59,083 nt of DNA from assembly GCA_016866785.1 (NCBI GenBank), contig VGLH01000007.1:1-59083 (forward strand), written 5' to 3'. Shown piece after piece: positions 10,992-39,614 of this stretch. The translations under genes and the position numbers were made by a program. Source of the DNA: Candidatus Poribacteria bacterium. GTDB lineage: Bacteria; Poribacteria; WGA-4E; GCA-2687025. The notes below the pieces were generated by a model, which was not told where the DNA came from, searched no databases, and worked only from the letters and a program-made list of their open reading frames with translations. Position 1 is the stretch's first letter. Every line of letters starts with the position of its first letter.

Positions 10992-11329
10992 GCGTTGCCT
11001 CCTGCTAGACCGAGTCACCCGGGCTGGCACCAAGACGGCACACCGGCGTGACGTTCCTTCGATGGGGTACGAAGCTCTTCGCGCGGACGCGGAGTTGCAT
11101 AGATGGAAAGAAGTCCTCGTGCGAGCCGGACGCAACCACGTACGCGATGTCGAACCGAACTGAGCGAGCTCTTAGCCGTCTATTCGCGCCGAATCCGGGC
11201 TCGTCTCCGAAACCAAGACGAGCCCGGACTTTGCAGGGCGAAGCGGATGCTCTGCGTATGGCGTGAGCGCGGGGGCTCGCCGATTGCTCGGCGCTGCCCC
11301 GCGCGGTTGGGGTTAGGGTCGGAAGGCGA
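10992..11329 (-). other. Intergenic region between the two giant genes (338 bp)
   Basis: It holds one strong hairpin (11194-11228, listed separately) and the AGGAGG ribosome site just before 10991. I found no convincing -35/-10 pair on the minus strand, so the downstream giant may depend on read-through from the upstream gene. No open frame with coding character is visible. Confidence 0.5.
11194..11228 (-). terminator. Terminator-like hairpin after the 3851-aa gene
   Basis: A perfect 13-bp GC-rich inverted repeat (TCCGGGCTCGTCT and complement) with a 9-nt loop lies about 100 nt past the stop codon. No U-run follows on the minus strand. It may be a partial terminator or an mRNA-processing or stability element. 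Confidence 0.6.
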
Positions 11330-14300: not shown

Positions 14301-17300
14301 TCAACCGTCTTGGACGCTGAGAACGGGCGGTTCGGGACCGAGAACGTCAGCGTGAACTGACCATCGGCTCCCGTCGTCCCGCCGGACACCGCCGGCACGA
14401 CCTGACCGTCGTACTTGACCGTCAGCGACTCACTGGCGCCGAACCCGGAGCCAGTCACCGACACGATGTTGCCCGGAGCAACCGTCGTCGGCGAAACAGC
14501 CACGGACTGACCGATCGTGATCGTGTCGCCGAGCGACAGCGGGCTGGAGCCCGTGCCCTCACGGGCGATCAACTGGACCGGTCCGCCGGGGACTGCCGGC
14601 ACGGAGAACTGGACACCGGAGAAGGCGCCGGTGCTATCCGTGAACGTCGTCGCAACGCGGATGCCCTTGACCTCCACGTAGACGATCGTGTTCGCCGCGT
14701 AACCCGTCGCCCGCAGGCTGATGAGTCCGCCCACGTTCGCGCTCGTCGGGGTGATGGTCAGCGAGCCGCCGACGTTGAACGTCGCATCGACGTTACCCGT
14801 GCCAGTGCCGGCAGCGCGAATCGTCCGCGCGCCAAACGGCACCGTGACCGGCATCGTCTTGACGACCGTGAACGCGCCGCCGCCGTCTGTCAGGGCGGAC
14901 CCAAGGCTGGTGGCCGGGTCAACGATCGTGAACGTGACGGCATCACCACCGGGGAACCCGGTACCTGTGATCGTGAACGACGTGACGGACGCGCCGCTGT
15001 TGGGTGACAGCGTGATCTTTGGCTTGACCGTGAACGACGGGTTCGTCGCCGGCTTCGTCGAATCGACGGAGATGACTAGCGCCTTCGCGCCCATCGTCGT
15101 CGCCGGAGCCGTCGCGCTCAGCGCAACCGCACCGTTCGCTTGGACGACCGCCGTCGCCACGACCGCGCCACCGTCGCCGTCGAACCGCAGGCTCGCCGTA
15201 GCGCCCGCCGGGAACCCAGAGCCGGAGACCGTGAATGCGGTTCCGACGGTTCCATTGGCGGGGCTGGGAGCAGCAGCCGACGGTATCATCTTGTAGGCGA
15301 GCTGACGTTCCGTCGCCGAATTCAGCGCCTGACCCGAGGTCGTGCCACGGAGCTGAATGTCGGTCACGCCGAACGCATGCTCCGGCGCCGAGAACGACAG
15401 GACGATGCTTCCGTCGCTCTTGGCGATGGTGCTGAACGACGTGCCGTTCACCGTCGCCGTGACCGTCTCGCCGCCCGCGAAGCCGACGGCGTTGATCACG
15501 ATCGCCTCGCCCTTGCGCGCCTCAGGAGGCGTAAAGGAACCCGACGGGGTCGATACGGTTCCAGGGACGCCGTTGGCGAGGACTGAGCGGACACCCGCGA
15601 CGACACTCACAGACCCCGACGCAACCTGATCCGTGCCGACATCCACGACAATCGCCTGGCTCCCGTAGGGAACCGGGGGTATGTCAAGCGCTAGCTTGAA
15701 CGTCCCATTTGCCGTTGCCGTCAGGGTACCGGCAGCAGGATTGTTGAGGTCACTGATGCTCGTCGGGTTCAACCCGCCGACCTTGACCTGCGTGGTCAGG
15801 ATCGCTTGGCTCGCCGCAAAGCCATCGCCCTCGACGACGATGCGCCCGCCCGGTTCAACCGACGCCGGATCGACCTTCGTGATCCGCGCGCCCTTGATCT
15901 CGAACGTTCCAGCCGTGTTGAACACCGTCAGCACCGTCGTGGCGACTGGGTAGCCGGCGAGCTTCGACCGCGTCGGAACGCTGATCGTCGCGACGATGAC
16001 GCCGTTGCTGTTGCTCTTGACGGTGAACGGGTCGCTGCCCTCGCGGACGCCCGTCGAGACGGAGGTCGTCTGGACGCTCGTGCCGCCGAAGGTGATCGAA
16101 CCGTAGTTCGTGTCCGCCTTCAAGCCCGTCAGGGTCACAACCAGAGCCGTGCCCGGAGCGCCCGCGGCAACGTTCAGCGCCTGCTTGGTCAAGAGCGTCA
16201 TGGCAACCGCCGTCGCAGCGCCGACGCGCACGTTCTTGGTTCGGCTAACCGTCTCCGTGGCGTGAATGCCGCTCGTGGGCCAAGCGAACTTGGCTTCGAA
16301 CACGCCATTCGCGTTCGTGATGATTTGGTTGCCGATCTGCGTCCCGAGCGTGACCGAGCTCAACAGCACGTCGGTGTACTGCTCACCCGCCGACGTCAGC
16401 GAGCTGATCTGGATCGCGCCGACCGTCGTGTTCGACGCGAAGCCAACGCCCTTCACGGTGATCGTGTCCCCCGGCAGAACCGTCGTGGCAGACAGCGTGA
16501 TCGCTGTACCCGACCCTGGGGTCGAGAGCAAGAACGTGCCGTAGGTCGCAGTTCCTGTGCCTGCAGTCGCGACGATCGACTTGACGCCGGCGGTTGCGGC
16601 GGCTGGGATAGAGTCCTTGTCCAGCCGGATCGATGCGCTGAACGATCCGATCGCGTCGGTCGTCACCGTGGACGGGCTGACGAGTCCGCCAACGCCTCCT
16701 GGCACGGCAGAGCCGCCGAACGTGAACGTGACGGCCTGGCTAGCCGGGAAGCCCTGACCGGTGACGAAGATCGTCGAGCCGGGTTGAGCATCCGACGGCG
16801 AGACAGAACTGATCACGGGTGTTGTGGTGACCGTCGCCGCGGTGGCTTCGGCGATGACCGCCGAGGCGGAACCGACGGCGCGGAACCACTTCGTTGCGCT
16901 GCCGCCGGAGCCGGCGTCAGACGCCTGGACGATGTAGTCGATGCTGAAAGTACCGTCGGCGGCGGCAGTCGTCGACTGCGGGTTCTTGAACCCGAGGGTC
17001 GTGTTGCCGAGCGACACCGTCACGGTCTCGCCAGCGCCGAAGCCGTTGCCCTTGACGGTGACCTTGTCGCCGATCGCCTTTGCTCCGACGACCGCCGACG
17101 GATCGGTGATCTTGCCGGTGATGACGACCGTGACGATGGGGGCGGTGATCTTGGCAGACCCATGCACGCCCGTCGTCACGCCGCGCAACCGAATGTCGCG
17201 CGCGCCCGCAGCCTTCGTCGGAACCTTGACGCTCAGCGTCAGGGCGCCGCCGGAACTCGTCTTGTGGCTACCGTCGCCCGACTTCTTGCCGGCGGAGTCG

Positions 17301-20300
17301 GCGATGTCTTGATCGAAGACTGGATTGTTCCCGAAGTCGATCGCGACCTGCTCGCCGCTGCCCATGTTGACCAGCGAGATCGTGCGGACGTCAGCGACGT
17401 TGACCGTCGCGCTGCCAGTCAGCGTCGCGCTGGGCAGGATCTCGAGCGACAGGCCGCTCGACTTCTTGTCACCAGGACCCACGATCTCGATGGCTTTCAC
17501 GCCACCGGCGATCGTGCTGGGAACGAGGAAGTAGGCGACCGTGGTGCCGTAGCTGTTGGCGACGGCTGCGGCGACCGGCGTTCTGTCCGTACCGCTCGTC
17601 ACGAACGACGTCGCCGCGTCAGCGCCGAGCTTCACGGTGAGAGCGCCGCTTGCCGGGAATCCGGTCACGCCGACGCCGATCACGTCCGCGAGGACGCCGC
17701 CGCGCAGGCTGATCGCCTCGAGGACGCCGTTGAAGTCGGCATCCGGCTGCGTCACGCCAGGCACGGAGAAGTTCTCGATGCCCGTCAGGTTCGGAACGAC
17801 TGTGAACTTGTCGGAGGTGAAGCCGCCGACCTTCACGAAGTAGTCGTTCGTCGGGAGATCGAGGACCTTGATGCTGGCGTCGAACGAGCCGTTGGCGTTC
17901 GCCACGATGTAGCCGGACTGCAGGATGCCCTCAGCCACGGTGATGTTCGTGGTCGAGATGGTTCCGCGTCCTGCGGCGATCGCGTCCTGGCTGTCGGCAG
18001 CCTTCGAGGCGTCCGAGCGGGTGACTTGGAGGTTGTCCGACCGGAGCCATGCCGTCGAGGTCCCGTCGACGATCGACCACTTGTTGAAGCGGGTTGTCGA
18101 GAACACCTCGTAGGTGGCGCCGTTCGCCTTGAACCCGGTACCGCTGAAGGTCACGATGCCGCCGACCTTCACGCTCGCCGTCGCCGCCGAGATCGTGACC
18201 TTGGGCACGATCTGGACGTTCGTCCGCGCCGTCGGGACGCTCGAGGACGCCAGTGCGTAGATTGCGGCTGGCGCCTCAGGCATCGTGAACGTCACTTCGA
18301 ACGCCCCTGCGCCGTCGGCGATGATCGTCGCCCCGGACACGATCCCGACTCCAGCGCTCGCTGGAGTCAGCGTGATTGTCCCGAGCTGCAGCACGCCGGT
18401 ACTGGCGTTGGCGCTGAACCCGGCGCCGACCACGCGCACCGTCGTGCCAACCTGAACGTCCGGCGCACCGTCGCTGCCGGCGTCCGTGAAGGACGACTTG
18501 TCCGACTTCGTGACCGTCAGCGTTGCCGCTGTGCCGGTCGGGCTGAAGACGAACGCTGACGAGCTTGCCGTCACCGTCGCGTCCCCGCTGTCGGTCGCCG
18601 AGATCGTCACGGATCCGGCGGTCGTCGTCCCAGCGGTGATCTGGGCGCTGAACTCGCCATTCGCCGCGACTTCAGCCGTCCGCTGAACGATTCCCGCATA
18701 GGAGATTGACACAAGCTGGCTGGGTCGGAATGCCTTGCCGCTCACCGTGATCGTCGTTCCGCTCGCGCCACTCGAAGGCGACACGGCAATCGACGGGGTG
18801 ATCTTGACGAGGCTCGCCAGTTGCCCAGCGAAGTCGAGGATCGAGTCCCCCTTGAATGCCAGGCTCAGCAGGCCCGCGTTCAGCTCGGATGGGACCACGA
18901 AGCTGGCGCTCATGTCGCCGTTGGACCCAGCCACACCGGACAACGTCAGCGCCTTCCCGCCATCGAATGCGGCGCCAGCGTCGGCGATACCCGGGTTGGT
19001 GAGTCGCGCCAAGGACGCGCCCGCAGGCATGCCCTTGATGATGACCGTCACCGTGCTTCCGATACTGACCGAGACCGGCGTAGCACCCTCGGTCAAGCCA
19101 CGGTTGCTGTTGAACTTCGCCTTCGCCGACCCTCCGACCTGGATCTCGGTCAGAAGCGGCAGGATCTTCAGCGCATCCGTCGCCGAGCTGGCGCTCTCAT
19201 TGAGCGTCTTGCCCAACACGCTCAGCGTCTTGCCGCCTGCGACAAGGCTGCCCACCGTGATCGACGTGGAGAACGCGCCGTTGGTGTCCGCCGCGGACGC
19301 GCCGCCGGACGCGAACGACTGGACGACTCCGCCGAGTTTCGGCTCCAGGGCTTCGCTCGCGCCGAAACCGTTGCCGGTGAAGGTAACCGTATCGCCGACT
19401 TCGATGTTGCCCAGTGTCGTGAGCGTGACCGAGGGCTGGATTAGGATCGACGCCGAGTCCTCTTCAGACGTGAGCGTGCCGGTCAGCAGGCTCTGGACGC
19501 GGATGCCCGTCGTGCCGCCGCGAATGCCGGCGGGAACGACGAACCTCGCGACCAGCCGTCCCAAGCCGTCCGTGCTTGCACTCGACGCAACGTCCTGTCC
19601 GAGGACCTTGACGGTCGTGCCAGCCAGCAGGCTCGCGCCGCTGATCTGCGTCGTCGCCGACTGCCCCTCGAAGATGACCGTCACGGCGGAGCTGCCGGTG
19701 AAGCCGGCGCCCGTGATCGTCACCGTGTCGCCGATCTTCGCCTTGCCCGGGCTGACGTTCAGCACGCCCGCGACGATGTTGAACGCGACCGTGTTGCGAC
19801 GACCGGAGATGTCGCCCCAGACGGACAGACCGCTGTTGGTAGCGGTACCGGTCGTCGTCTCGGAGTAGGCGCCAGCAGCAAGGGCGGGCAGGCTCATGAG
19901 GAGGCTGTTGAAGCTCCCCGTCCCATCGGACGCGCCGATCAGCCCCACTTCGCCGCCTGCGACACTCGCGCGCAGGTTCTCATTGGCGCCGAAGTGAACG
20001 CCCGACACCTTCACCTGGTCGCCCGGGGCGCCGGTGGAGAAGGAGAGCGTGATCTTGGCGTTGAGGAGAACCGTGTTCGCCGAAGTCGCCGTCAGCGTCG
20101 AGGTCAGACCCGTCGCCTTCACCGCGATGCCCGAGCTGGAACCAGCCTGCGCGGGAATCGTGAACGTGACGGCGGTCAGAACGCCCGATGCGTTCGAGGA
20201 CGTCGTGGCGATCCCACTGGTCGACCCGAAGTCGATGCGGACGGACTCGTTCGCGCCGAAGCCATCACCATCGACCTTGATCGTGTCGCCCTTGACCTTG

Positions 20301-22885
20301 TCCGTGATGTTGCCGGTGGAGTCGTTCAGCTTGGTGATTCGCGGCGACACCGTGAAGGGCACCGTGAACCCGCCGACGCTGACGTCCGCAGCGCCGCCAG
20401 CGCGCGACGGAACGACGAACGTCACGACGAAGGTTCCATCAGCCGCCGTGATGATGCGGCTCTGGTCGTCGATGGACCCCGTCGTCGCGGCGAGGGAGTT
20501 CCGCGTATTGCTGGAATCCACCGCCTTGAGCATCGCCGTGCCGCCGAAGAACAGGTTGCCGAGGTTGACGATCGCGGGGGTACCGACGGTTCCCGTCACC
20601 TGGATCGTCGTCCCGCCCGGCGCCGAGTTGGAGCCTGTCGCGGGATTCACTGCTGACAGGATCGGACTCGCGGACGACGCTTCGACGGTGAACTCCATCG
20701 TCGAGCCGCCGATCGTCGTCGTGGCGCCGTGGATCAGGGCAACAGCGCCCTGGATCTCGATCAGGCGGCGCGTCTTGGCGTTGTTGGCGACCGTCAGCGA
20801 ACCCGCCAACCCGCCAGCCGCGTCGGTCGTCCCGATCGTCACGTTCTCCTGAAGGTTGGCACCGGCGATCCCGCCCGTGTAGTCCTTGACGTGGACCTTG
20901 ATGGCAGTACTCGCCGGGAACCCGTCGCCCGTGAAGGTGATGATCGACCCGACGACCACCGGCACCGGCTTCAGGAACGCGGTGATGGCGCTCTTCATCG
21001 ATACCGGGTTCGCTAGGCTCGCGCTTCCGCCAGAGGACAATCCCGTGATCTTCACGGTCTTGTCGCCCGCCGACAGGTTCCACACCTGAACGCTTCCGAG
21101 CAGCTCACCGTTGGCGTCTACGCCCGTCACGTTCTGCGCGTACGTGCCGATCTCGACCTTGACGGTCTCACCGGCGGCGAGCCCACGCGCGCGGAAGTTG
21201 ATGACGTTCGAGTTCCGAATCGCCGACTTGGCGTCCGCCGCGAGTCCCGCGCCGGGCTCAGGGCTGTTCACCCAGACCTTCGTCAGGCTCGCGGAGACAG
21301 AGAAGGAGACGATGTTCGTGACCGCTCCGGTCAACTCGACTCGCTTCGAACCAGCGGTTGACTGCGGCACGGAAGCCGGCACCGGGAACGTCACCTTAAA
21401 GATACCGTTGGCGTCGCTCGTCACATCAGTACCCGTGACGGTGCCGACGGTGGCGGTCGGGGTGACGACGTAATCGATGTTGCCGAACGTGACCTTGCCA
21501 AGGTTCGTCAGCGGGACGAATCCGAAGCCCGTCAGCGTCAAAGTGTCGCCGACAGCGCCGCTGGACTTGTCGAGCGCGATGGACGCGCCCAGACCCGGAT
21601 TCGAGTAGACGAACCCGCTAACGGTCGCCGGCTTGCTAGAGACCTTGCCTGTCACGGTGATCGACTTGACACCGCTCGTGGCAACGCTCGGAACCGCGAA
21701 CTGGACGACGCGCGTCCCGTTGGCATCCGCAGCGTTGTCGGATGCATGGGCAGTGGCAGTCACGGCGATGCCGTCGAACGTGATGTTGACGTCTTCATCC
21801 CACGTCGCGTTCGTGTCGCCGCCCCGCTTGTTCAAGCCCTTGACGTCGATGATGACCGTCGTGCCCGCTGTGCCGGACTGCACCGACGCGGCATTGAATC
21901 CGGCGCTCACGTTGACCGTCACGCCGCCGGCGTCCGAGAACGTGTCCGCCTCACCGACGACCTGCATCGTTACCGTGTTCGCCGTCGCGGCGTACTGCGC
22001 TTCGGCAACCGTCGTGCTCAGGTCGACAACGCCGAGCGCCGAAGCGGCGACCGTCGATGTGCGGCCGGGAGTGACGACGGTAACGTTGGCGCCACCCGGG
22101 AAGCCCTCGCCCTTGACGACGAGCGCTTCGCCCACGAGACGCGACGTCTTGTCGATCGACGCGACCTTCGAGATGACGCGGAAGTTCGACGTCGCCGCCA
22201 GGTCGCCGCCGACGTTCTTGTCGACCACGGTCACGCCGACGACACCGCTCGTCGTCGTCGCGCGGGCAACCGACTTGAGCGCGATAACGACGGAGAACGT
22301 CCCGTCGGCGTTGACGGTCGCGTCCTTGTTCAGGTTGTCGGCGTGGCTGGAGGTGGAAGAGGCGACTCCCGCCGCGAGGGCCACGTCGCCGAGGCTGACC
22401 TTCGCCTTGTTGTCACCCGACTTGAGCCCGTTCCCGGTGACCGTGACCGACTCGCCGACGCGCGCCGCGAAGGGCGAGACGCTGGTGATCTGCGGCAGGA
22501 TCGTGAACGCCGTGGTCGCCTGGGTTCCACCCACCCGCAGGAACTGCTGACCGCCGCTCACCGCCGGTAGACGGAACTGAAAGCGGTAGGAGCCGGAGCT
22601 GTTGGTCACCACGCTGTCGTCGCCGCTCAGACTGCCCGTGATGGCGAGCAGGTTGTTGGACGCCGACGTCAGCGTGATGCCTCCGATCGTCACACGACCG
22701 AGGGTCGTGTTGGGCGTCAGGCCGGAGCCCTGGACGAGGATCGTGCTGCCGACCTTGCCCGAAGTCGATCCATCCGCTGCCAGTACGCTGTCGATCAGCG
22801 CAGCCTGGGTCGACCCCGCAACGCCGAAAAGCACCAGAACCAGCAAGCAGGCGAAGGACATGCCCTGCTTAAGGTACTTTCGCAT
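11330..22885 (-). CDS. Giant secreted IPT/TIG-repeat protein, 3851 aa, with type-IX-like C-terminal domain
   Basis: A very large exported filament-like protein. The ATG at 22885 follows AAAGGAAG. The signal peptide MRKYLKQGMSFACLLVLVLF ends near residue 28 (STQA-AL). By eye residues 29 to about 3260 hold about 32 diverged tandem modules of about 95-115 aa. Their strands repeat patterns such as AVSPTTVAPGNIVSVTGSGF, followed by (A/G)NE(S/T)(L/V) and (T/A)(D/N)A(N/D)G(S/T)F; this is the IPT/TIG Ig-like fold. Residues about 3260-3455 are further Ig-like domains. About 3458-3635 hold a duplicated module beginning HAGVNLVSVPV. About 3640-3745 form a carboxypeptidase-regulatory-like domain. The last 95 residues contain MPNYPNPFNPETWIPF, YWDGTNETGERVASGLYLY and a final RRMVILK, a FlgD-like/type A sorting signal known from Poribacteria-like proteomes. 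Surface display is inferred. Confidence 0.9.
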   Translation of the reverse strand: MRKYLKQGMSFACLLVLVLFGVAGSTQAALIDSVLAADGSTSGKVGSTILVQGSGLTPNTTLGRVTIGGITLTSASNNLLAITGSLSGDDSVVTNSSGSYRFQFRLPAVSGGQQFLRVGGTQATTAFTILPQITSVSPFAARVGESVTVTGNGLKSGDNKAKVSLGDVALAAGVASSTSSHADNLNKDATVNADGTFSVVIALKSVARATTTSGVVGVTVVDKNVGGDLAATSNFRVISKVASIDKTSRLVGEALVVKGEGFPGGANVTVVTPGRTSTVAASALGVVDLSTTVAEAQYAATANTVTMQVVGEADTFSDAGGVTVNVSAGFNAASVQSGTAGTTVIIDVKGLNKRGGDTNATWDEDVNITFDGIAVTATAHASDNAADANGTRVVQFAVPSVATSGVKSITVTGKVSSKPATVSGFVYSNPGLGASIALDKSSGAVGDTLTLTGFGFVPLTNLGKVTFGNIDYVVTPTATVGTVTGTDVTSDANGIFKVTFPVPASVPQSTAGSKRVELTGAVTNIVSFSVSASLTKVWVNSPEPGAGLAADAKSAIRNSNVINFRARGLAAGETVKVEIGTYAQNVTGVDANGELLGSVQVWNLSAGDKTVKITGLSSGGSASLANPVSMKSAITAFLKPVPVVVGSIITFTGDGFPASTAIKVHVKDYTGGIAGANLQENVTIGTTDAAGGLAGSLTVANNAKTRRLIEIQGAVALIHGATTTIGGSTMEFTVEASSASPILSAVNPATGSNSAPGGTTIQVTGTVGTPAIVNLGNLFFGGTAMLKAVDSSNTRNSLAATTGSIDDQSRIITAADGTFVVTFVVPSRAGGAADVSVGGFTVPFTVSPRITKLNDSTGNITDKVKGDTIKVDGDGFGANESVRIDFGSTSGIATTSSNASGVLTAVTFTIPAQAGSSSGIAVKATGLTSTLTATSANTVLLNAKITLSFSTGAPGDQVKVSGVHFGANENLRASVAGGEVGLIGASDGTGSFNSLLMSLPALAAGAYSETTTGTATNSGLSVWGDISGRRNTVAFNIVAGVLNVSPGKAKIGDTVTITGAGFTGSSAVTVIFEGQSATTQISGASLLAGTTVKVLGQDVASSASTDGLGRLVARFVVPAGIRGGTTGIRVQSLLTGTLTSEEDSASILIQPSVTLTTLGNIEVGDTVTFTGNGFGASEALEPKLGGVVQSFASGGASAADTNGAFSTSITVGSLVAGGKTLSVLGKTLNESASSATDALKILPLLTEIQVGGSAKAKFNSNRGLTEGATPVSVSIGSTVTVIIKGMPAGASLARLTNPGIADAGAAFDGGKALTLSGVAGSNGDMSASFVVPSELNAGLLSLAFKGDSILDFAGQLASLVKITPSIAVSPSSGASGTTITVSGKAFRPSQLVSISYAGIVQRTAEVAANGEFSAQITAGTTTAGSVTISATDSGDATVTASSSAFVFSPTGTAATLTVTKSDKSSFTDAGSDGAPDVQVGTTVRVVGAGFSANASTGVLQLGTITLTPASAGVGIVSGATIIADGAGAFEVTFTMPEAPAAIYALASSSVPTARTNVQIVPKVTISAATASVKVGGIVTFSGTGFKANGATYEVFSTTRFNKWSIVDGTSTAWLRSDNLQVTRSDASKAADSQDAIAAGRGTISTTNITVAEGILQSGYIVANANGSFDASIKVLDLPTNDYFVKVGGFTSDKFTVVPNLTGIENFSVPGVTQPDADFNGVLEAISLRGGVLADVIGVGVTGFPASGALTVKLGADAATSFVTSGTDRTPVAAAVANSYGTTVAYFLVPSTIAGGVKAIEIVGPGDKKSSGLSLEILPSATLTGSATVNVADVRTISLVNMGSGEQVAIDFGNNPVFDQDIADSAGKKSGDGSHKTSSGGALTLSVKVPTKAAGARDIRLRGVTTGVHGSAKITAPIVTVVITGKITDPSAVVGAKAIGDKVTVKGNGFGAGETVTVSLGNTTLGFKNPQSTTAAADGTFSIDYIVQASDAGSGGSATKWFRAVGSASAVIAEATAATVTTTPVISSVSPSDAQPGSTIFVTGQGFPASQAVTFTFGGSAVPGGVGGLVSPSTVTTDAIGSFSASIRLDKDSIPAAATAGVKSIVATAGTGTATYGTFLLSTPGSGTAITLSATTVLPGDTITVKGVGFASNTTVGAIQISSLTSAGEQYTDVLLSSVTLGTQIGNQIITNANGVFEAKFAWPTSGIHATETVSRTKNVRVGAATAVAMTLLTKQALNVAAGAPGTALVVTLTGLKADTNYGSITFGGTSVQTTSVSTGVREGSDPFTVKSNSNGVIVATISVPTRSKLAGYPVATTVLTVFNTAGTFEIKGARITKVDPASVEPGGRIVVEGDGFAASQAILTTQVKVGGLNPTSISDLNNPAAGTLTATANGTFKLALDIPPVPYGSQAIVVDVGTDQVASGSVSVVAGVRSVLANGVPGTVSTPSGSFTPPEARKGEAIVINAVGFAGGETVTATVNGTSFSTIAKSDGSIVLSFSAPEHAFGVTDIQLRGTTSGQALNSATERQLAYKMIPSAAAPSPANGTVGTAFTVSGSGFPAGATASLRFDGDGGAVVATAVVQANGAVALSATAPATTMGAKALVISVDSTKPATNPSFTVKPKITLSPNSGASVTSFTITGTGFPGGDAVTFTIVDPATSLGSALTDGGGAFTVVKTMPVTVPFGARTIRAAGTGTGNVDATFNVGGSLTITPTSANVGGLISLRATGYAANTIVYVEVKGIRVATTFTDSTGAFSGVQFSVPAVPGGPVQLIAREGTGSSPLSLGDTITIGQSVAVSPTTVAPGNIVSVTGSGFGASESLTVKYDGQVVPAVSGGTTGADGQFTLTFSVPNRPFSASKTVEVMGATTGFAKSATVTLSGALVSIVSTRTGAATGTPGDTIVVSGVANPSTNLGNLFFATQVVTGLTATTGQIVGADQIITNVTGNYAVQFTLADKIGGTYLVTVGDRSTVFTVVGGVTVTSINGDATKTTSAARGDIVAIAGKGFNPGETIRVKVGSAGAEATVETSPLVVTTDANGSFAAVTLKLGDLPGGAINVIAQGLLSSGTAKLTLPSAVSQPAADAKLPVTMGSEVTVKGTLFTANSALTFKVGSTTAEAVSGATTDAKGDFSAVIKVPAVVNGVQAITVSDAAGLTITVAQALHMNASLSVTPATGTLGTEVTVKGYGFAADQNMTIDFGTIANFAAPKATASGTIEVKGTISAAQTAGARVVVTAKTDTAALATNDTFVYLNAIEAVSVSPTTPAKAGVAITVTAQIGSASNATFTITGVAGAKDVAMATDASPATPAPAGYKAVKGSYTVKDGDDVSKAAVTVTSTDASGKTSSATATGTVTIDTKLAITASSLEPAEVRNGLTFTVKVTTEAGAKITADVSTVDSTKTAAVNLTESATTAGSFSADVAISSDSTSASGDKVVKVTVTDAAGNTASAELKVRLQNETTYTVSLHAGVNLVSVPVKIKTLARASDLFKLLGGDEFVSVVILADAAGKFQPFTSAVEVGSPSDRAISDGTGAIVVMKKANSVKVTGGMLSETVALNKGLNVVGVTRSGAVATASAIKGLAPDAVSVVIAESGGQFKPVSAAADVSVSGGAAYLVNATTAATLTFKGGAWMNSASAAPVSSVYNADATPVFVIDGTLAREDNARAVNGIDVTVTNLRSGLTLSEASGNTAGNGRYAATFVNLGSGDADFRVGDTLELRVTDGSGTFGGVKPVRHTITSEDVRRGHLDMGSILLSVVPVQSALMPNYPNPFNPETWIPFQIAESAAVRITIYSPAGEVVRTLDLGALPAGTYTTRSKAAYWDGTNETGERVASGLYLYRIEAGSYSAMRRMVILK

Positions 22886-23130
22886 CGCAGATTCTTCCTT
22901 TCGTTCCCGCGAGTCTTCCGACATCGGAAGGGGGGTTTCCGCGAACCGACGTGACTTCGTAAACGCTGACATACGCACCTTGCGATTGAGGGATGTTATG
23001 GACGATTGCATTGGTGACCGACGGGAGCTCAGGTGCTTCTTCTCAGCGCTCCTTCTGCTGGCAAGACCTCCCACCGAGTGACGCCGCGGGCGGCGGCGTA
23101 GAACCGATGGCAAGCCGCAAAACGCACTCG
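22886..23130 (-). other. Long 5' leader of the giant-protein transcript (about 240 nt)
   Basis: The stretch between the -10 element at 23131 and the start codon has no convincing gene. On the transcript it can form ACGCCGC/GCGGCGT (23081-23099) and CTTCCGA/TCGGAAG (22915-22930) hairpins. The latter is just upstream of the ribosome-binding site. I do not recognise a known riboswitch class. The leader could regulate translation or stabilise a roughly 20-kb mRNA. Confidence 0.45.
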
Positions 23131-24960: not shown

Positions 24961-26511
24961 CTAGTAGGTCACGCGAACCGCGACCTCGGCAGTCAAGTGG
25001 GTCTCGTCTACCCCGGCTCGATGGTCCAGGTTCCGCACGCGCCGGATGCCGGCGCTCACGACTCCCTCGAAGCCACCCGCGCGCGTGTGCGAGTAAAATG
25101 CCGACGATTCCGATATGGACTCCACGGTCCCCGAGAGATAGTTCCACGAGAGCGGATCAGCCGCCGTATGCCGATCCGCAAGGCGTGTCTCGCCCTGCCG
25201 CGCGGTTTGGTGCAGCAGACCCGTTCTGCCGCGCGCGCCGACCGCTCGCGAGACTTCGACGGCAATCAGATCGGAGTCCGGGCCCGTGCTCAGTCCCAGC
25301 GGCCGCCCGCCCAGCGAGTAGTTCAGCCCGTCCGCTTCGTGTGTATACAGCCACTGGTTCGCGAACGCGTACTCCGCGCGGACGTCGGCTCCGCCGAGCG
25401 GAAGCACATCGAATGCGTGGATTCCCGCGTGGACACCGTACTTCGAGTCCCAGTTCCGAAGGAGCCCAACCCCCTCTTGTGGCTGGAGGTCGTCGAAGAA
25501 GATGTCGACAAAGGCGACCGTTCGCGGGGCGATCCGCGCCACGATGTCCCCGCCGAAGAACATGTTGTCACCGGCGTAGCCGTCGCCGCCCGGGGCAGCG
25601 ATGCCACTCTCAACCATCGGCACTAGGAAGACGTAGACGCCGACCGGGTTCACGTACGCGAGCTCGAGGCGATCCCGGTACACCACGCCCTCGTACGCGC
25701 TCAATGCCACGCGGTCCGAGACCCGCGCACTCAGACGGTGCCCAGACCAGTAGGTGGAAGTGCCGGCATGGGGGAGCGCGAACGTCAAGCTCTCGAATCG
25801 CAGCGGTCCAAAGGACGCGGCAAATCGCACGCCGTCCTTACCGTCCGACGCCGCCGAAAGCGCGAGATGCTCGAAGGTTCCCGGTCCCCACACCGCGTTG
25901 AGACGACCCACCTGAACGTTCAAACGCGGCGTGCCAACCGAGACGTGCCCTCGTGCGCCGTTGATCTGGTTCGGGAGGAACGAGAACGATTCGCCCGCCA
26001 GCGGATGCTCATCGGGACGATACGGATAGCCCTCCGACGAGACGCCCCAAGTGAGCTCGCTCAGAAAGCCGAAGTTGCCGGTCTCCCCCATGATCCCGGA
26101 ACGGATCGAGGCAATCGAGCTCACACCCGAATCGTCGCGTTCGGCGCGCGTTTCGATCCCGATCGACACCGCAGCAATACCGAGGGGATCGTTTGAGCGG
26201 ACCGTCATCGAGCTCGTCTGGAACCGGAGATATGAAAGGAGGTCATGAGCGCGCGCCTCGTCCGACTCCGACAACGGAACCGCAAGAGCTCGTTCGAGCC
26301 AATCCACCAACTCGCGCCGGGCGTGCTGCCGGAACCCGATGGCTTCGATGGGCACGACGCCGCGCACGGCGAGCGACGTCAGCAGACGCGATGCTTCGTC
26401 GTCCCTACCGAGAAGGATCGTCGGGTTCGCCGACGCTTGCCCAACCACCAGGAACATGCCCGCAGCGCAGAGCACGAGCACCAGACGAAACGCGATCTGA
26501 CGACGCGTCAT
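24961..26511 (-). CDS. Wzi-like capsule-assembly outer-membrane barrel, 516 aa
   Basis: A probable outer-membrane beta-barrel of the capsule-assembly Wzi family, which holds group 1 type capsule at the cell surface. The ATG at 26511 overlaps the phosphatase stop as ATGA, implying translational coupling. A signal peptide occupies about residues 1-31 (ends GQASA-NP). A small helical region (RRELVDWLERAL) precedes the barrel, as in Wzi. The strands alternate hydrophobic and polar residues, with family-like stretches such as NVQVGRLNAVWGPGTFEHLALS and a final aromatic TAEVAVRVTY strand. It is the last gene of the glycan cluster. This suggests that the product is displayed as a capsule or surface polysaccharide. 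Confidence 0.72.
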   Translation of the reverse strand: MTRRQIAFRLVLVLCAAGMFLVVGQASANPTILLGRDDEASRLLTSLAVRGVVPIEAIGFRQHARRELVDWLERALAVPLSESDEARAHDLLSYLRFQTSSMTVRSNDPLGIAAVSIGIETRAERDDSGVSSIASIRSGIMGETGNFGFLSELTWGVSSEGYPYRPDEHPLAGESFSFLPNQINGARGHVSVGTPRLNVQVGRLNAVWGPGTFEHLALSAASDGKDGVRFAASFGPLRFESLTFALPHAGTSTYWSGHRLSARVSDRVALSAYEGVVYRDRLELAYVNPVGVYVFLVPMVESGIAAPGGDGYAGDNMFFGGDIVARIAPRTVAFVDIFFDDLQPQEGVGLLRNWDSKYGVHAGIHAFDVLPLGGADVRAEYAFANQWLYTHEADGLNYSLGGRPLGLSTGPDSDLIAVEVSRAVGARGRTGLLHQTARQGETRLADRHTAADPLSWNYLSGTVESISESSAFYSHTRAGGFEGVVSAGIRRVRNLDHRAGVDETHLTAEVAVRVTY

Positions 26512-27128
26512 CCGACGTGACCTTTGAACGGCGATAGGTGAACCACGAGGAGAGGCACGGCATCGACCAGCATCGCCCGACGCTCGGTCGGCGTCACGCC
26601 CAGACTCGACGGCTCTGCTGGATCGGATGTGGCATCGTCGCCGACCAGAACCGTGCGACAGCCGGAAGCCGCCCCGGCGGCGATGTCCGACCACGAATCG
26701 CCGACCAACCAGCTCTGCGGCAGGTCGATCCCCAGGTCCAGGCTCGCGCGGCGAAGCATGCCGGGCTTCGGCTTCCGACATTCGCAGTCTGACTCTCGCA
26801 GATGAGGACAGTGGTAGATGGCGTCGATACGTCCTCCGTGGGCAGAAACCGCGTCCACCATCCGCTCGTGAATCTCAGCTAAGTCGGACTCGGACATCAG
26901 CCCCTTGCCGATGCCCTGCTGGTTTGTGATGACAACCACGGGAAGGTTCAAGAAGGACAGATCGCGGAGCGCATCCAGCGACGATGGCAGGAAGCGGAAC
27001 TCACGCCAGGACGTGACGTAGCCGCCGATGACGCGCTCGTTGATGACGCCGTCGCGATCCAGAAAGATGGCGGGACTAGGCTTGCCGGATGTTGAACACC
27101 ATCTTGCTGCCGTCTTGGACGAAGTCAA
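26508..27128 (-). CDS. gmhB: D-glycero-manno-heptose-1,7-bisphosphate 7-phosphatase, about 206 aa
   Basis: A HAD-family phosphatase that removes the 7-phosphate of heptose 1,7-bisphosphate in nucleotide-heptose synthesis. The HAD motif I reads AIFLDRDGVINE, motif II VVVITNQQGIGKG, and the GmhB zinc loop HCPHLRESDCECRKPKPGM is present. Motif IV WLVGDSWSDIAAG follows. The start is uncertain. The conserved domain begins just after the kinase stop at 27076, and no ATG or GTG lies close by. The TTG at 27128 gives a family-like length, while the next ATG (27332) adds a non-conserved Ser/Arg-rich extension inside hddA. It overlaps hddA upstream and the wzi-like gene downstream. Confidence 0.85.
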   Translation of the reverse strand: MTSSKTAARWCSTSGKPSPAIFLDRDGVINERVIGGYVTSWREFRFLPSSLDALRDLSFLNLPVVVITNQQGIGKGLMSESDLAEIHERMVDAVSAHGGRIDAIYHCPHLRESDCECRKPKPGMLRRASLDLGIDLPQSWLVGDSWSDIAAGAASGCRTVLVGDDATSDPAEPSSLGVTPTERRAMLVDAVPLLVVHLSPFKGHVG

Positions 27129-28080
27129 ACGGGAACTCTCGCAGGTGACCGAGCGCCTCACGCACTCTCTCCTGGCGATCGATCGGGACACACAGAAGCA
27201 GGAACCCGCCGCCTCCGGCTCCCAGCAGCTTCCCACCAATCGCTCCAGCCTCCAGCGCGGTCTCGTACATGGCGTCGATCTGGCTATTGGAGACCTTGCT
27301 GGCGAACTGCCGCTTGAGGAGCCATCCGTCATGCAGGATGGTTCCGAACTCCTCGATCAGTGGACCTCTAGTCGGAGTCCGATTCAGTTCATCCAGGAGT
27401 TCCAGGGTTCTTGGGACCAACTTCTTGAGGAGAAGGAAATACTCGGACCGCTCGGGGATGTTCTGTTTCTGCTCGGCAAGTACCGCGTTCGCCTTTCGCT
27501 CGATGCCCGTGTAGAAGAGGAGCAACGAGCGCGAGAGCGAACGTCGGGCTTCCGGGCTCACGCGCACGGCCGTCACATCGACTCGATCGTCTTGGCGGAA
27601 CTCAATGTGGCGGAAGTTGCCGTAGGCGGCGATGTACTGGTCCTGCTTACCGATCGGATGGCGGAGGATGTCGATCTCGACTTCGCACGCTTCACGCGCC
27701 AAGTGCTCGGCATCGACCAGTTCGCCTTTGTACGCGTGGAGGGCGTTGAGCAAGCCCACGGTCACACTGCTCGACGAGCCGAGCCCGGTTCCGCGCGAGG
27801 GGATGTCCGCCAGGAAGGTGATCTCGACGCCACCATCTACCTCAAGCTTGCGCATGCACTCCCGGACGATGTCATGCTCGATGGCATCGACGTCGGAGAC
27901 GATCTCTTTCTTCGAGTAGTTGATGTAGATGTCAGAGTCGAACCGTTCTTTCACGATCACATAGATGTACTTGTCGATGGCAGTGCTGACGACGGCGCCT
28001 GCGTGATCCAGGTAGAAGTCCGGCATGTCGGTTCCGCCGCCGACAAAGCTGATGCGCAACGGCGTCTGGGTGATGAGCAT
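27076..28080 (-). CDS. hddA: D-glycero-D-manno-heptose 7-phosphate 1-kinase (GHMP family), 334 aa
   Basis: A GHMP-superfamily sugar kinase that adds the anomeric phosphate to heptose 7-phosphate, the step before GmhB. Motif 1 (PLRISFVGGGTDMPDFY) is at residues 7-23. The ATP-binding motif 2 (PSRGTGLGSSSSVTVG) is at 94-109, and motif 3 (GAIGGKLLGAGGGGFLL) is near 280-296. Length is normal for HddA. The gene follows the nucleotidyltransferase after 45 nt and overlaps gmhB. The three neighbours encode kinase, phosphatase and nucleotidyltransferase, as in GDP-heptose pathways of S-layer or capsule glycans. No sedoheptulose-7-phosphate isomerase (gmhA) is visible in the window. Confidence 0.85.
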   Translation of the reverse strand: MLITQTPLRISFVGGGTDMPDFYLDHAGAVVSTAIDKYIYVIVKERFDSDIYINYSKKEIVSDVDAIEHDIVRECMRKLEVDGGVEITFLADIPSRGTGLGSSSSVTVGLLNALHAYKGELVDAEHLAREACEVEIDILRHPIGKQDQYIAAYGNFRHIEFRQDDRVDVTAVRVSPEARRSLSRSLLLFYTGIERKANAVLAEQKQNIPERSEYFLLLKKLVPRTLELLDELNRTPTRGPLIEEFGTILHDGWLLKRQFASKVSNSQIDAMYETALEAGAIGGKLLGAGGGGFLLLCVPIDRQERVREALGHLREFPFDFVQDGSKMVFNIRQA

Positions 28081-28125
28081 TGCTGAGTCGGCGCCTCCGG
28101 CCCCCTGCAGTCCGCCGCAGGAGCC

Positions 28126-28839
28126 CTACCGTGTCTCTGATGTGCGTCTCCGGTACCAGTCCAACTGAGCCCGGGCGTAGCTTTCCATTGTGCCGATGTC
28201 GCGCAAGTAGCCTTTAACCGGCGTACCGCGCATCTTCCCGACTAGCCGTGGCAGTACGTCCTTGCCGATGTCGGCGTCCGCCTCGCCAATGTAGTCTAGA
28301 AAGGACCTTGAGGCAACGTAAATCCCGGCGTTCGCCCATCGGCTCACTGGCTTTTCGGGCTTCTCGACGAAATCGACAATGGTCGAGTCCTCGTCGAGAG
28401 TCGCGATCCCACAACCGCGCGGATTGTCGGACTCGAACAGCGCCATCGTCAGCACGTCACGGTCCTGGCGATGGCTCGCTGCCAGATGAGACAGATCGGC
28501 GTCCGTCAGATTGTCGGCATAGCAGACCAGGAAGTTGTGATCGCCCTCGACCCATCCGCGGTGTCGCCGGATCGTCCCAGCGCTCCCTAGGAGTTCTTCC
28601 TCATGCGACGTGAAGACATGGATGCCGTAGCTCGGACGCGCCGACGCGAGATAGCGTTCCACCGACTCGGGCAAGTAATGCGTATTGATCAGAACCTGAC
28701 TGATCCGATGCTGCTGAAGCAGATCCAACCAGATCGCTAGCAGAGGTGCTCCATTAATCGGCAGCATGCACTTCGGCAGTTCGTAGGTCAGGGGCCGTAG
28801 GCGCGTGCCCAGTCCGGCAGCAAGCAAGAAAGCCTTCAC
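28126..28839 (-). CDS. Sugar-1-phosphate nucleotidyltransferase (HddC-like), 237 aa
   Basis: A left-handed-helix-free NTP_transferase enzyme that activates a sugar 1-phosphate. The nucleotide-binding signature KAFLLAAGLGTRLRPLTYEL is at residues 2-21 and the PKCMLPINGAPLL motif follows. YADNLTDAD near residue 107 carries the metal-binding Asp. VDFVEKPEKP and WANAGIYVA are the sugar-binding segments. The start is GTG after AGGGA. From context it most likely makes GDP-D-glycero-manno-heptose (HddC role), but a mannose-1-phosphate guanylyltransferase or similar activity cannot be excluded from sequence. Confidence 0.8.
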   Translation of the reverse strand: MKAFLLAAGLGTRLRPLTYELPKCMLPINGAPLLAIWLDLLQQHRISQVLINTHYLPESVERYLASARPSYGIHVFTSHEEELLGSAGTIRRHRGWVEGDHNFLVCYADNLTDADLSHLAASHRQDRDVLTMALFESDNPRGCGIATLDEDSTIVDFVEKPEKPVSRWANAGIYVASRSFLDYIGEADADIGKDVLPRLVGKMRGTPVKGYLRDIGTMESYARAQLDWYRRRTSETR

Positions 28840-30716: not shown

Positions 30717-31847
30717 CTAGCCCTGATGCGGATTCACTCGATCATCCAGTTCCGCGGCAAACTCCATGTAACGCATGTGCGGCTCGACGGGAATCGACCC
30801 TGGTGTCGACGACACGAACGACTCCCGACGGTCTGGATCGTCGAAGAGATACAGCGCGTACCCGCCCCATCCGGCGCCACAATACTTTCGCGATGCCCCG
30901 CCTGCTTCCGGGAGAGGCGGCATGCGCTCGTCCAACTGCACTTCGTATGATCGGTCGATCGCTTCGCGCAACAGATCGATGTCGCTGTTGAGAGCTCCGC
31001 GCATCGCCGTCTCGCCTGCCTCGACGATCGCGTCATAGTCCCGGTGGATCAACGCTGGGTCGAAGGATTCATCCCGCGCGTACGTCCACACGGCGACCAT
31101 GTGTCCCTTGAGGAACGCCGGGTTCCGCTTCATGACCAGCCCGGCTGCGTCGCCAGCTCTCCATACGCACAAGCCGGTCTCCAAGACGACGGCGGGGTCT
31201 TGCCAGCCGCGACCTCCAGCCCACTCGGACAAGAACGAGTTGTTGCCGTGCAACGCGCTCCATGCGGCGGACCCGCCCAAGCCGGCGCCCTTCTCGTAGG
31301 ACCACTCCCCGATGCCCACCAGAGGCGACACGGAGCAGTTGACCACATATCCCTCGATCCCGCCGCTCGCCTTCACGTAGTCGAGCCACCCGCCTGCGAT
31401 ATCGACGCGAAGCGGAACCATCCACGGCGCTGCGGCGCGCGCGCGCATCTCGGTCGAACTGATCTGCTCATACGTGAGGGTCTTCGGAAGGACGACATAC
31501 TCGCAACCGACTTTGGCGCATAGCTCGCGCTTCATCGACTCGAACCGGTCATCTTGCGTGACGGCGAGGATGCTGGGGTTGATCCGCTCGAAGACCTCTT
31601 GGAAGTCGAGGCCGACCCGATCTCCCGAGCTCAGGTAGGCTTCGTCGACGTACTGAATGGCACGAACGACCTCCAAGCGGTGTTGTTCCGGCATCGCCGG
31701 GAGTCGGTACTTGTGCCGCATCAGCACGCGATCTGACGCGACGGACACGACGAGTCGGTCGCCTAACGCCCGAGCCGCTCGAAAGAACTCGATGTGTCCA
31801 CCGTGGATCGTGTCATAGCAACCGGAGACGAAGACCGTTCTCCCCAT
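30717..31847 (-). CDS. Nucleotidylyltransferase-GHMP kinase fusion protein, 376 aa
   Basis: Two enzyme domains are fused. Residues 1-137 are a cytidylyltransferase-fold domain like HldE domain II, with GCYDTIHGGH at 9-18 and ISSTEMRAR at 129-137. Residues 145-376 resemble a GHMP sugar kinase: motif 1 PLRVDIAGGWLDY (145-157), motif 2 KGAGLGGSAAWSA (186-198), motif 3 KYCGAGWGGYALYLF (321-335). Only 28 residues separate motif 1 and motif 2, against about 70-75 in the neighbouring HddA, so part of the kinase N-lobe is missing. The likely role is phosphorylation and nucleotide activation of a sugar, perhaps a heptose or polyol. The ATG at 31847 follows GGGAAG; an in-frame ATG 12 nt upstream is possible. 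I do not know a characterised protein with this order. Confidence 0.75.
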   Translation of the reverse strand: MGRTVFVSGCYDTIHGGHIEFFRAARALGDRLVVSVASDRVLMRHKYRLPAMPEQHRLEVVRAIQYVDEAYLSSGDRVGLDFQEVFERINPSILAVTQDDRFESMKRELCAKVGCEYVVLPKTLTYEQISSTEMRARAAAPWMVPLRVDIAGGWLDYVKASGGIEGYVVNCSVSPLVGIGEWSYEKGAGLGGSAAWSALHGNNSFLSEWAGGRGWQDPAVVLETGLCVWRAGDAAGLVMKRNPAFLKGHMVAVWTYARDESFDPALIHRDYDAIVEAGETAMRGALNSDIDLLREAIDRSYEVQLDERMPPLPEAGGASRKYCGAGWGGYALYLFDDPDRRESFVSSTPGSIPVEPHMRYMEFAAELDDRVNPHQG

Positions 31848-37439: not shown

Positions 37440-39614
37440 TCATTCGACCTCCGCTTGAAGCCCGTCGGCCTGGGGCTGAAGACGATCCTCGACCCAGAGC
37501 GTCATCTCCGTCGCGTGTAGCTGTTCCCAGACAGGGATGGGTGGTTCTGTTCCGTGTCGTATGGACTGGAAGAACGCGCGCACGGCGGATCGGTGTCCCT
37601 TATCCGCCACGCGTCTGCTGTCGCCTTTCGCGCGCACGCCCTTGGCAGCCCAGCCGCGATAGTCGTTGAGGGTGAGCACCGCCCCGTCGACAAAGACCTC
37701 CATCGTCTCTTTCGGGTGGTCCGATGATCCCAGCGCGGTGTAAGTCAGCGTCGCGATGCTTCCCTCTGCGAATGCGAACGTCGCGGAGAAGTTGTCATCG
37801 TGCCGGCAATGATGGGTGCGCGGCACGATGTGGGTTACAGCAACGCTCTCAACCGATGCGCCCGTCAGGTAGCAGAACAGATCGTAGATATGGCAAGCTT
37901 CGCCGCGATTTCGTCCGCCGCCAGATGAAGAAAAGAACCAATGGTCGGGCGGCAGACGGCCTGCGTTCATCCGGTAGTCGATGATCATGGGGTTGGTGCG
38001 CCGTCCGACGATGCTCGCCATTGCCGCAATGTCCGGCGCAAACCGTCGGTTGAACCCCGTCTGCAGCACAGGCGCATCCGAGCCGAGCTCCGAAAGCAGA
38101 TCCTGGATGTCGTGGTACTCCTTCCAGGTCATGCAGAGAGGCTTCTCGACGAGGACATGCTTCCGGGCTCTGAGCGCGAGCATCGCCATCGAGGCATGGA
38201 CATCGTGAGGCGTCGTCAGGATGACGGCGTCGATGGTTTCGTCGGCAAGCAGCGCCGCGTAGTCCGTCAGCGCGTGGTCGGCTCCTAGCTGACGGGCGAC
38301 AGCGACAGCGTTCGCCCCTGTGCGGCTCACCACGGCCCGCACCTGGCATAGATCCGACAGCTCCGACAAGATGGGCACATAGGTGCCCTTGGCGAAGCTC
38401 CCTGCACCCACCAAGGCGACACGAACCGGCGATTCAGACTGAATCCCCCGTCTCGGCGTGTGTTCCAGGCGGACATGCGTCGATGGGGCATCGCCAGGGT
38501 CCGGGTAGTCCAGCACGACCAGCAGGGGCTTCTGCTGCCCGTGCTGGAGCTCACGGTACGCGTCGGCCGCCCGATCGATTGGGTAGGCAGCTTCGACCAG
38601 CGGCCCGACATCCATCGCCGAGTCACGAAGGAGTTCCAGGTACGCCCTCATGTTGCGCTGCTCGGTCCAGCGAACGTACGCGAACGGATAGTCGACGCCG
38701 CGCTCTTCGTATTCGGGATCGTACCGACCGGCACCGTACGAAGTCGAGATGAGGAAGTCCAGTTCCTTCTCGTAGATGTCCTGGCGGCGCACATTCAGGC
38801 CGACGTGGCCGACCAGGACCACTCTGCCCTTTCGCCGGCACATGCGGAATGCCGTCGAGATCACCTCGTCGTTGGCTGCATGCGCGGCAACGATCACACC
38901 GTCGGCGCCGAGGCCGTCCGTGTTCAGTAGCACTTGCTCCACGGGGTCGTTTGCAGCCGGGTCGATGTGTGTCGCCATCCCAAGACGTTCCGCCAGGGCG
39001 ACTCGATTGGCGGAGAGGTCCGATCCGATCACGCGGCAACCATTGGCTCTGAGCGCCTGAGCGGTCAGTTGGCCCACTGCCCCAAGGCCAATCACGACAA
39101 ACGTCTCACCGATCGTCGGGGATGCGCGACGTATCCCCTGAAGGGCGATCGCACCGAGCGCCACCGTGCTCGCATGGCGGAACGGCAACGCCGGAGGAAC
39201 AGGCACGACGAGGTTCTTTGGAACGCAGATCACTTCTGCGTGATGGGCGAACTGCGCACCGGCACATGCTACTGCCATTCCAGGCAGTAGACCCTCGACT
39301 CCCCGCCCTAGTTCGAGGACGACGCCTGCCGCAGAGTATCCGATCTGGTGTGCAGCGGACACCTTCCGCCGGACCTCGCGGATCGTTGCCCGGACGCCCG
39401 ATGACAAAGCCCGGTCGATGACCTGTCGAACTCTCTGTGGTTGCTCCAGCGAGCGCTGGATCAATGACTTCCCGCTCGCCTCAAGCGAGGCAAGCTCCGT
39501 GCCGGGAGAAACGCACGAGGCGCGCACGCGCACAAGGACGCATTGGTCCTGCACGACGGGAGCCGGCACGTCATCGACGATCACCTCGCCGTCCTTGAGG
39601 AACACCTGCCTCAC
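37440..39614 (-). CDS. Fused zinc-type dehydrogenase and Gfo/Idh/MocA oxidoreductase, 724 aa
   Basis: A two-domain oxidoreductase seen in several polysaccharide clusters. Residues 1 to about 360 form a medium-chain dehydrogenase with a GroES-like N-domain (RVRASCVSPGTELASLE) and a Rossmann motif VVIGLGAVGQLTAQAL near 170. Residues about 395-724 form a Gfo/Idh/MocA domain: RVALVGAGSFAKGTYVPIL, the EKPLCMTW motif, and GGGRNRGEACHIYDLFCYL for the substrate side. The GTG start overlaps the FkbM stop as GTGA. The two domains may oxidise and reduce the same sugar in sequence, or act as a scyllo-inositol or uronate epimerising pair. The substrate is unknown. Confidence 0.88.
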   Translation of the reverse strand: MRQVFLKDGEVIVDDVPAPVVQDQCVLVRVRASCVSPGTELASLEASGKSLIQRSLEQPQRVRQVIDRALSSGVRATIREVRRKVSAAHQIGYSAAGVVLELGRGVEGLLPGMAVACAGAQFAHHAEVICVPKNLVVPVPPALPFRHASTVALGAIALQGIRRASPTIGETFVVIGLGAVGQLTAQALRANGCRVIGSDLSANRVALAERLGMATHIDPAANDPVEQVLLNTDGLGADGVIVAAHAANDEVISTAFRMCRRKGRVVLVGHVGLNVRRQDIYEKELDFLISTSYGAGRYDPEYEERGVDYPFAYVRWTEQRNMRAYLELLRDSAMDVGPLVEAAYPIDRAADAYRELQHGQQKPLLVVLDYPDPGDAPSTHVRLEHTPRRGIQSESPVRVALVGAGSFAKGTYVPILSELSDLCQVRAVVSRTGANAVAVARQLGADHALTDYAALLADETIDAVILTTPHDVHASMAMLALRARKHVLVEKPLCMTWKEYHDIQDLLSELGSDAPVLQTGFNRRFAPDIAAMASIVGRRTNPMIIDYRMNAGRLPPDHWFFSSSGGGRNRGEACHIYDLFCYLTGASVESVAVTHIVPRTHHCRHDDNFSATFAFAEGSIATLTYTALGSSDHPKETMEVFVDGAVLTLNDYRGWAAKGVRAKGDSRRVADKGHRSAVRAFFQSIRHGTEPPIPVWEQLHATEMTLWVEDRLQPQADGLQAEVE

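Follow-up and report, generated by a model that had tools for sequence, protein, structure and literature searches.

The window analyzed here, the whole 59,083-nucleotide stretch of Candidatus Poribacteria contig VGLH01000007.1, encodes a 376-residue protein in which an N-terminal HxGH (HldE/TagD-type) nucleotidyltransferase (NT) is joined to a C-terminal GHMP kinase with a very short N-lobe. On balance we favor the reading that this protein is a bifunctional 1-kinase of L-fucose or a fucose-like sugar and a sugar-1-phosphate nucleotidylyltransferase, an FKP analogue whose NT domain has been exchanged. FKP is the known bifunctional L-fucokinase/GDP-L-fucose pyrophosphorylase that salvages free L-fucose, and it is used for laboratory fucosylated products. 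We infer the activity of both halves, L-fucose as the substrate and the order of the two reactions. The gene, its parts and the neighboring gene used for comparison are as follows.

30717..31847, minus strand: fused gene, 376 aa (ATG at 31847, stop at 30717-30719)
31434..31847, minus strand: HxGH-type NT domain, residues 1-138 (PF01467; HldE domain II / TagD / PCYT2 superfamily)
31794..31805, minus strand: HGGH (H15-H18), the HxGH signature of the NT half, with H15, G17 and H18 invariant (n=72)
30720..31433, minus strand: miniature GHMP kinase domain, residues 139-376, 238 aa, as predicted using AlphaFold2, Foldseek and hhalign
31380..31409, minus strand: motif 1, RVDIAGGWLD, residues 147-156, with R147, W154 and D156 in register with FKP R592, W599 and D601
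31290..31379, minus strand: 30-residue link joining motif 1 to motif 2, from residue counts and the AlphaFold2 model
31263..31289, minus strand: motif 2, GAGLGGSAA, residues 187-195, the phosphate loop, with S193 aligned with the Mg-binding Ser719 of FKP
31191..31208, minus strand: GWQDPA, residues 214-219, with FKP Q761 and D762 (the general base) as counterparts of Q216 and D217
30861..30887, minus strand: motif 3, KYCGAGWGG, residues 321-329, with G324, G326, G328 and G329 invariant
27076-28080, minus strand: HddA-like gene, 334 aa, the neighbor used for the spacing comparison

The fusion of an NT to a GHMP kinase with a shortened N-lobe, as proposed in a preliminary description of this DNA, was confirmed using Pfam, the motifs, AlphaFold2, Foldseek and hhalign. 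Residues 7-137 matched CTP_transf_like PF01467 in Pfam with an E value of 1.8e-16, and the same domain was matched in all 72 family members with the HxGH motif invariant. The best NCBIfam match of the NT half was HldE domain II (TIGR02199) at 57.7 bits, far under its cut-off of 181.5, and every NCBIfam equivalog cut-off was missed. Profile matches in the PDB were 3elb, 3glv and 1coz and Foldseek returned 3glv, 5x3d and 5xf2, with HldC, Fom1 and TagD named among the Foldseek matches. TagD, PCYT2 and HldC have the NT fold and HxGH motif in common with the N-terminal half but, unlike the window protein, do not carry a GHMP domain. The substrates of these enzymes are small polyol- or amino-alcohol-phosphates or heptose-1-phosphate.

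The C-terminal half of the window protein did not match the Pfam GHMP models, and a search against Pfam and NCBIfam gave no GHMP match except for a sub-threshold FKP hit at 8.9 bits. Across the family, PF00288 (GHMP_kinases_N) was found in none of the 72 members among the matches listed and PF08544 (GHMP_kinases_C) was matched by only 2 of the 72, with a best E value of 0.01. As no GHMP match rose above threshold, profile and fold comparison were used for this half. AlphaFold2 modeling of the whole protein with the family alignment as input resulted in a pLDDT of 94.1 and a pTM of 0.86, and the high pTM for two domains suggests that the NT and kinase domains hold a fixed mutual arrangement in the model. 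The C-terminal half modeled alone gave a pLDDT of 93.2 and a pTM of 0.89. Foldseek on this half found WcbL (1.8e-8), Campylobacter HddA, the fucokinase part of FKP (2.5e-7), mevalonate kinase and galactokinase. Because the predicted structure retrieves GHMP kinases and profile comparison agrees, the C-terminal half is assigned to the GHMP fold on the strength of the model, with motifs 1, 2 and 3 present; the possibility raised earlier that it has no GHMP fold was refuted by the structure prediction.

The N-lobe of this kinase is unusually small. Motif 1 and motif 2 are separated by 30 residues in the window protein as compared to 78 in the neighboring HddA and 100-114 in FKP of Verrucomicrobiota. 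The preliminary description had counted 28 residues against more than 70 in HddA; the contrast was right and the exact count was not. By this measure (30 as compared to 78-114 residues) the window protein lacks the full ATP-pocket N-lobe of the GHMP superfamily. The distance from motif 2 to the catalytic Asp is reduced as well, and the kinase domain measures 238 aa as compared to 334 aa for the whole of the neighboring HddA. In the AlphaFold2 model a single strand (166-177) runs directly into the motif 2 loop, without the strand-helix-strand segment that separates motifs 1 and 2 in other GHMP kinases. The same spacing between motifs 1 and 2 was measured in 102 of 106 homologues, which rules out a frame-shift or local deletion as the source of the short lobe. 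The missing lobe belongs to the domain that holds ATP in GHMP kinases and therefore kinase activity is not to be assumed. However, nucleotide contacts in WcbL are mostly to the phosphates and ribose (PMC4691232), so the loss of base contacts need not end activity. Conservation in the family was high: the HxGH residues, R147, D149, G153, W154, L155, D156, N170, G189, G191, G214, W215, Q216, D217, P218 and the motif 3 glycines were invariant (n=72), and G192 and S193 were at least 90% conserved (n=72). That catalytic residues and spacing are conserved across the family argues against a decayed kinase.

To place the kinase half, profiles were compared using hhalign with target alignments of comparable depth (7 rows for FKP and 5 rows for HddA). 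The alignment to the kinase half of FKP ran through all three motifs with a probability of 97, an E value of 5e-11 and a score of 81, as compared to a probability of 58, an E value of 1e-4 and a score of 39 for HddA. With alignments of comparable depth an HddA-like substrate was ranked lower. By profile similarity the nearest counterpart of the kinase half is the L-fucokinase half of FKP, not HddA. A 2025 crystal study of FKP places Trp599, Asp601, Thr602, Gln761 and Asp762 in contact with fucose; Arg592 lies close to the anomeric oxygen, the metal is bound by Ser719 and the base is Asp762 (PMC11982464). In the same study kcat/Km with fucose fell more than 3000-fold on the W599A and D601A substitutions, and E751A and D762A abolished activity (PMC11982464). 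R147, W154 (+7), D156 (+9), S193, Q216 and D217 of the family fall in register with the FKP residues, and the fucose-contact set R592/W599/D601/Q761/D762 is matched and conserved in full (R147, W154, D156, Q216 and D217). FKP relatives carry GGGWQDQ. The counterpart of Thr602 differs, being Val or Tyr in the fusion family. E208, at least 90% conserved, is a candidate counterpart of FKP Glu751 and precedes the base by 9 residues, as compared to 11 in FKP.

On the favored reading, the GHMP half would phosphorylate the anomeric (C1) hydroxyl of L-fucose or of the like-shaped sugars L-galactose and D-arabinose. R147 and an Mg2+ held by S193 would steady the transferred phosphate, D217 would act as the base, and W154, D156 and Q216 would hold the sugar. 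The HxGH NT half would then couple the sugar-1-phosphate to an NTP, producing an NDP-sugar for polysaccharide or glycan synthesis. As compared to FKP, a compact HxGH domain stands in place of the GT-A/beta-helix pyrophosphorylase, and the kinase lacks most of the lobe that surrounds the ATP base. Conservation of both putative active-site motif sets in more than 100 homologues supports the earlier suggestion of a bifunctional route to a nucleotide sugar.

The window protein works like FKP in this proposal yet, lacking the PF07959 domain, falls outside the definition of FKP. The N-terminal half of FKP (Bacteroides fragilis type) is the fucose pyrophosphorylase PF07959 with a GT-A/beta-helix fold, whereas that of the window protein is the HxGH domain PF01467, and FKP is about 950 aa long as compared to 376 aa. 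The order is the same in both, an NT followed by a GHMP fucokinase, and so the order itself is not new. HldE (RfaE), the heptose 7-phosphate kinase/heptose 1-phosphate adenylyltransferase, likewise combines an HxGH NT with a kinase in a bifunctional plan, but its kinase is PfkB-type and N-terminal whereas the kinase of the window protein is GHMP-type and C-terminal. The full HldE model scored 47 bits against the window protein with a cut-off of 521. What is new is the combination of an HxGH-type NT with a miniature GHMP half. A literature search, with most subscription journals outside its reach, returned no description of the fusion nor of CDP- or ADP-fucose.

The search for the same architecture in other genomes produced more than 100 full-length fused relatives, some of which adjoin gmd/fcl or fucU; they come from Verrucomicrobiota, from phages and from a small number of other phyla. 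In full-length homologues the alignment ran from residue 1-5 to about residue 360 of the window protein. A protein search of IMG/VR found two full-length relatives and an alignment-based search found 26 viral loci, mostly full-length matches. Plasmid and phage records searched with the C-terminal half gave no match. At least 561 relatives turned up in genome contigs, many of them perhaps single NT paralogues, and the 80 best were taken. The relatives belonged mainly to Verrucomicrobiota (Akkermansiaceae and Opitutae); Planctomycetota, Patescibacteria, Kiritimatiellota, Myxococcota, Thermodesulfobacteriota and others contributed single cases, and some of the short MAG contigs holding relatives may be misbinned. 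The C-terminal half was detected in 36 of 195 sampled Verrucomicrobiota genomes, one of these being a weak partial match (G147). All of the listed matches in the 195 genomes sat in an open frame of at least about 360 aa, save G147 and G183:C58, the latter beginning at base 3 of its contig, and thus the two halves stay fused. Several Verrucomicrobiota genomes carried two copies of the fused gene at different sites, namely G110, G116, G083 (Akkermansia muciniphila), G121, G151, G170 and G198.

The family was rare elsewhere, occurring in 1 of 246 planctomycete genomes, and among 85 genomes of the window's phylum it was present only in the window's own genome. The 39 relatives of that genome held no full-length copy, only single NT paralogues. 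In a maximum-likelihood tree the window protein grouped with divergent phage copies, and because its branch is long its exact place is unsure. The presence of the family in 1 of 85 phylum genomes, together with phage copies as the nearest tree neighbors (on long branches), suggests that the window's genome gained the gene horizontally.

FKP was absent where the fusion was present. PF07959 was detected in 0 of 51 member genomes, the window's genome included. Among the 195 Verrucomicrobiota genomes the family occurred in 35, PF07959 above cut-off in 31 and both together in none, as compared to an expected co-occurrence of 5.6 (Fisher p 0.0017, a statistic that ignores shared ancestry). Planctomycetes were left out of this exclusion test, the family being found in only 1 of their 246 genomes. 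The pattern is compatible with one enzyme having taken the place of the other, with the same limit on the statistic.

Gene neighborhoods provided further evidence. At 13-14 Akkermansiaceae-type loci gmd and fcl lie directly upstream of the fused gene; the gmd product (GDP-mannose 4,6-dehydratase) scored 585 bits with a cut-off of 415 and the fcl product (GDP-L-fucose synthase) 464 bits in L083 with a cut-off of 500. Downstream are a WecG-type glycosyltransferase, UDP-glucose dehydrogenase, APS kinase and CysD, and from its gene content this operon probably makes a fucosylated and sulfated polysaccharide. In the planctomycete member gmd is convergent and about 70 bases away. In L075 the fused gene is followed after 6 nt by an L-fucose mutarotase gene (fucU; NF011949, 211 bits as compared to a cut-off of 141), and an 89% identical copy lies at the same distance in L079. 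Labeled on the tree, gmd appeared in three places and fucU in one. Most Opitutae copies were without an adjoining fucose gene, a point against the fucose reading, and many had unrelated neighbors. No separate fucokinase gene was seen traveling with the family in the neighborhoods examined.

Other neighbors were also recorded. At Akkermansia loci (rumen/gut; L121-L128) and phage loci L025, L027 and L033 a second, single-domain HxGH NT and a phosphomannose-isomerase-type cupin of about 108-125 aa come after the fused gene, a module shared by both groups. Phage copies sit amid apparent structural genes (L024, L037 and L041) and near a DnaB-like helicase gene (L027-L033), so phage genome regions of several kinds have taken up the gene. 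Adjoining a phage copy, L034 9086-10462 and the matching L035 gene encode a beta-phosphoglucomutase-like HAD/NTP_transferase fusion, another unusual sugar-activating fusion.

The window itself presents a different neighborhood. At 26508-28839 on the minus strand, HddA-like, HddC-like and GmhB-like genes lie in a row as a putative heptose-type set, all three under the NCBIfam equivalog cut-offs, and no gmd, fcl or fucU was seen near the fused gene in the window. This counts against the fucose reading. A gmd and a FucU-like gene were found elsewhere in the window's genome (C22 and C11). The long branch of the window protein, amid phage copies in the tree, makes the transfer of function from the Akkermansiaceae operons less secure. 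Elsewhere in the window, all on the minus strand, one ORF at 37440-39614 combines a zinc-type alcohol dehydrogenase with a Gfo/Idh/MocA oxidoreductase, 3348-11135 holds a 2595-aa ORF with Ig-like Big_13 repeats near the C-terminus, and 11330-23113 holds a 3927-aa ORF.

The product may also differ from that of FKP. We hold it possible, as a tentative proposal, that the enzyme makes CDP- or ADP-L-fucose rather than GDP-fucose, with the kinase binding ATP by way of the NT domain or using another phosphate donor. HxGH nucleotidyltransferases are known to use CTP or ATP whereas FKP uses GTP, and for this reason a nucleotide-fucose other than GDP-fucose was considered.

The same two-step chemistry could act on another sugar, a heptose or a hexose/pentose of a phage or EPS repeat unit, and we consider this rather unlikely. 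The NT half is nearest to HldE/TagD-type enzymes, the heptokinase WcbL came first among the GHMP kinases in Foldseek, the window gene adjoins the HddA-, HddC- and GmhB-like genes, and a second small NT and a mannose-6-phosphate-isomerase cupin lie beside the Akkermansia and some phage copies, all of which speak for another sugar. HddA/WcbL also have the GHMP fold and the active-site R, D, Q and D in common with the window protein (R13, D22, Q162 and D163 in WcbL; PMC4691232). However, they have no NT domain and a full-size N-lobe, and they carry GGGTD and GKQD (or similar) where the window protein carries GGWLD and GWQD, the Trp being absent from HddA/WcbL. The window protein, with GGWLD and GWQDP, was not among the matches listed for the heptose kinase signature NF049969 (GGGTD and GKQDQ). 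In addition, FKP outscored HddA in hhalign by 42 units, just one of the related loci held an HddA-like gene, and gmd, fcl and fucU recur beside family members. The second heptose, polyol or C7 derivative suggested in the preliminary description is likewise not favored, given the FKP-like kinase half and sugar contacts and the gmd/fcl/fucU neighbors.

It was also suggested earlier that the kinase half is a non-catalytic module, which would bind a sugar or sugar-phosphate and give the NT its specificity while a separate kinase makes the sugar-1-phosphate. All members lack the segment that builds much of the ATP lobe, in keeping with such a role, but R147, S193, D217 and the glycine loops are at least 90-100% conserved across phyla and phages. 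A catalytic Asp and an Mg-binding Ser would be needless for mere binding, and a fucokinase gene to supply the separate kinase was not seen in the neighborhoods examined. Given a catalytic Arg, an Mg-binding Ser and a base Asp that hardly vary, we judge this module improbable. Finally, we give very little credence to two enzymes of different pathways fused for expression or channeling, or to a domain moved to other phosphate donor or acceptor chemistry, for although the ATP lobe is unusual and the neighborhoods are very varied, phage replication and structural regions included, the halves stay joined in nearly every member found and the NT-kinase order is that of FKP, whose two activities are consecutive (PMC11982464).

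If the fucose reading is true, the fusion would explain fucose activation without FKP in many Verrucomicrobiota, the mucin-associated Akkermansia included, and would represent a second, much smaller fucose-activating enzyme with an NT unrelated to that of FKP. It would also demonstrate a GHMP kinase fold that is still functional with much of the ATP lobe gone, and a nucleotide-fucose not yet described might emerge. Should the product be CDP- or ADP-fucose, a separate fucose-activation pathway would operate in Akkermansia-type bacteria and phages. As phages, large ones, carry the gene, fucose-like sugars in phage-encoded glycan modification are pointed to.
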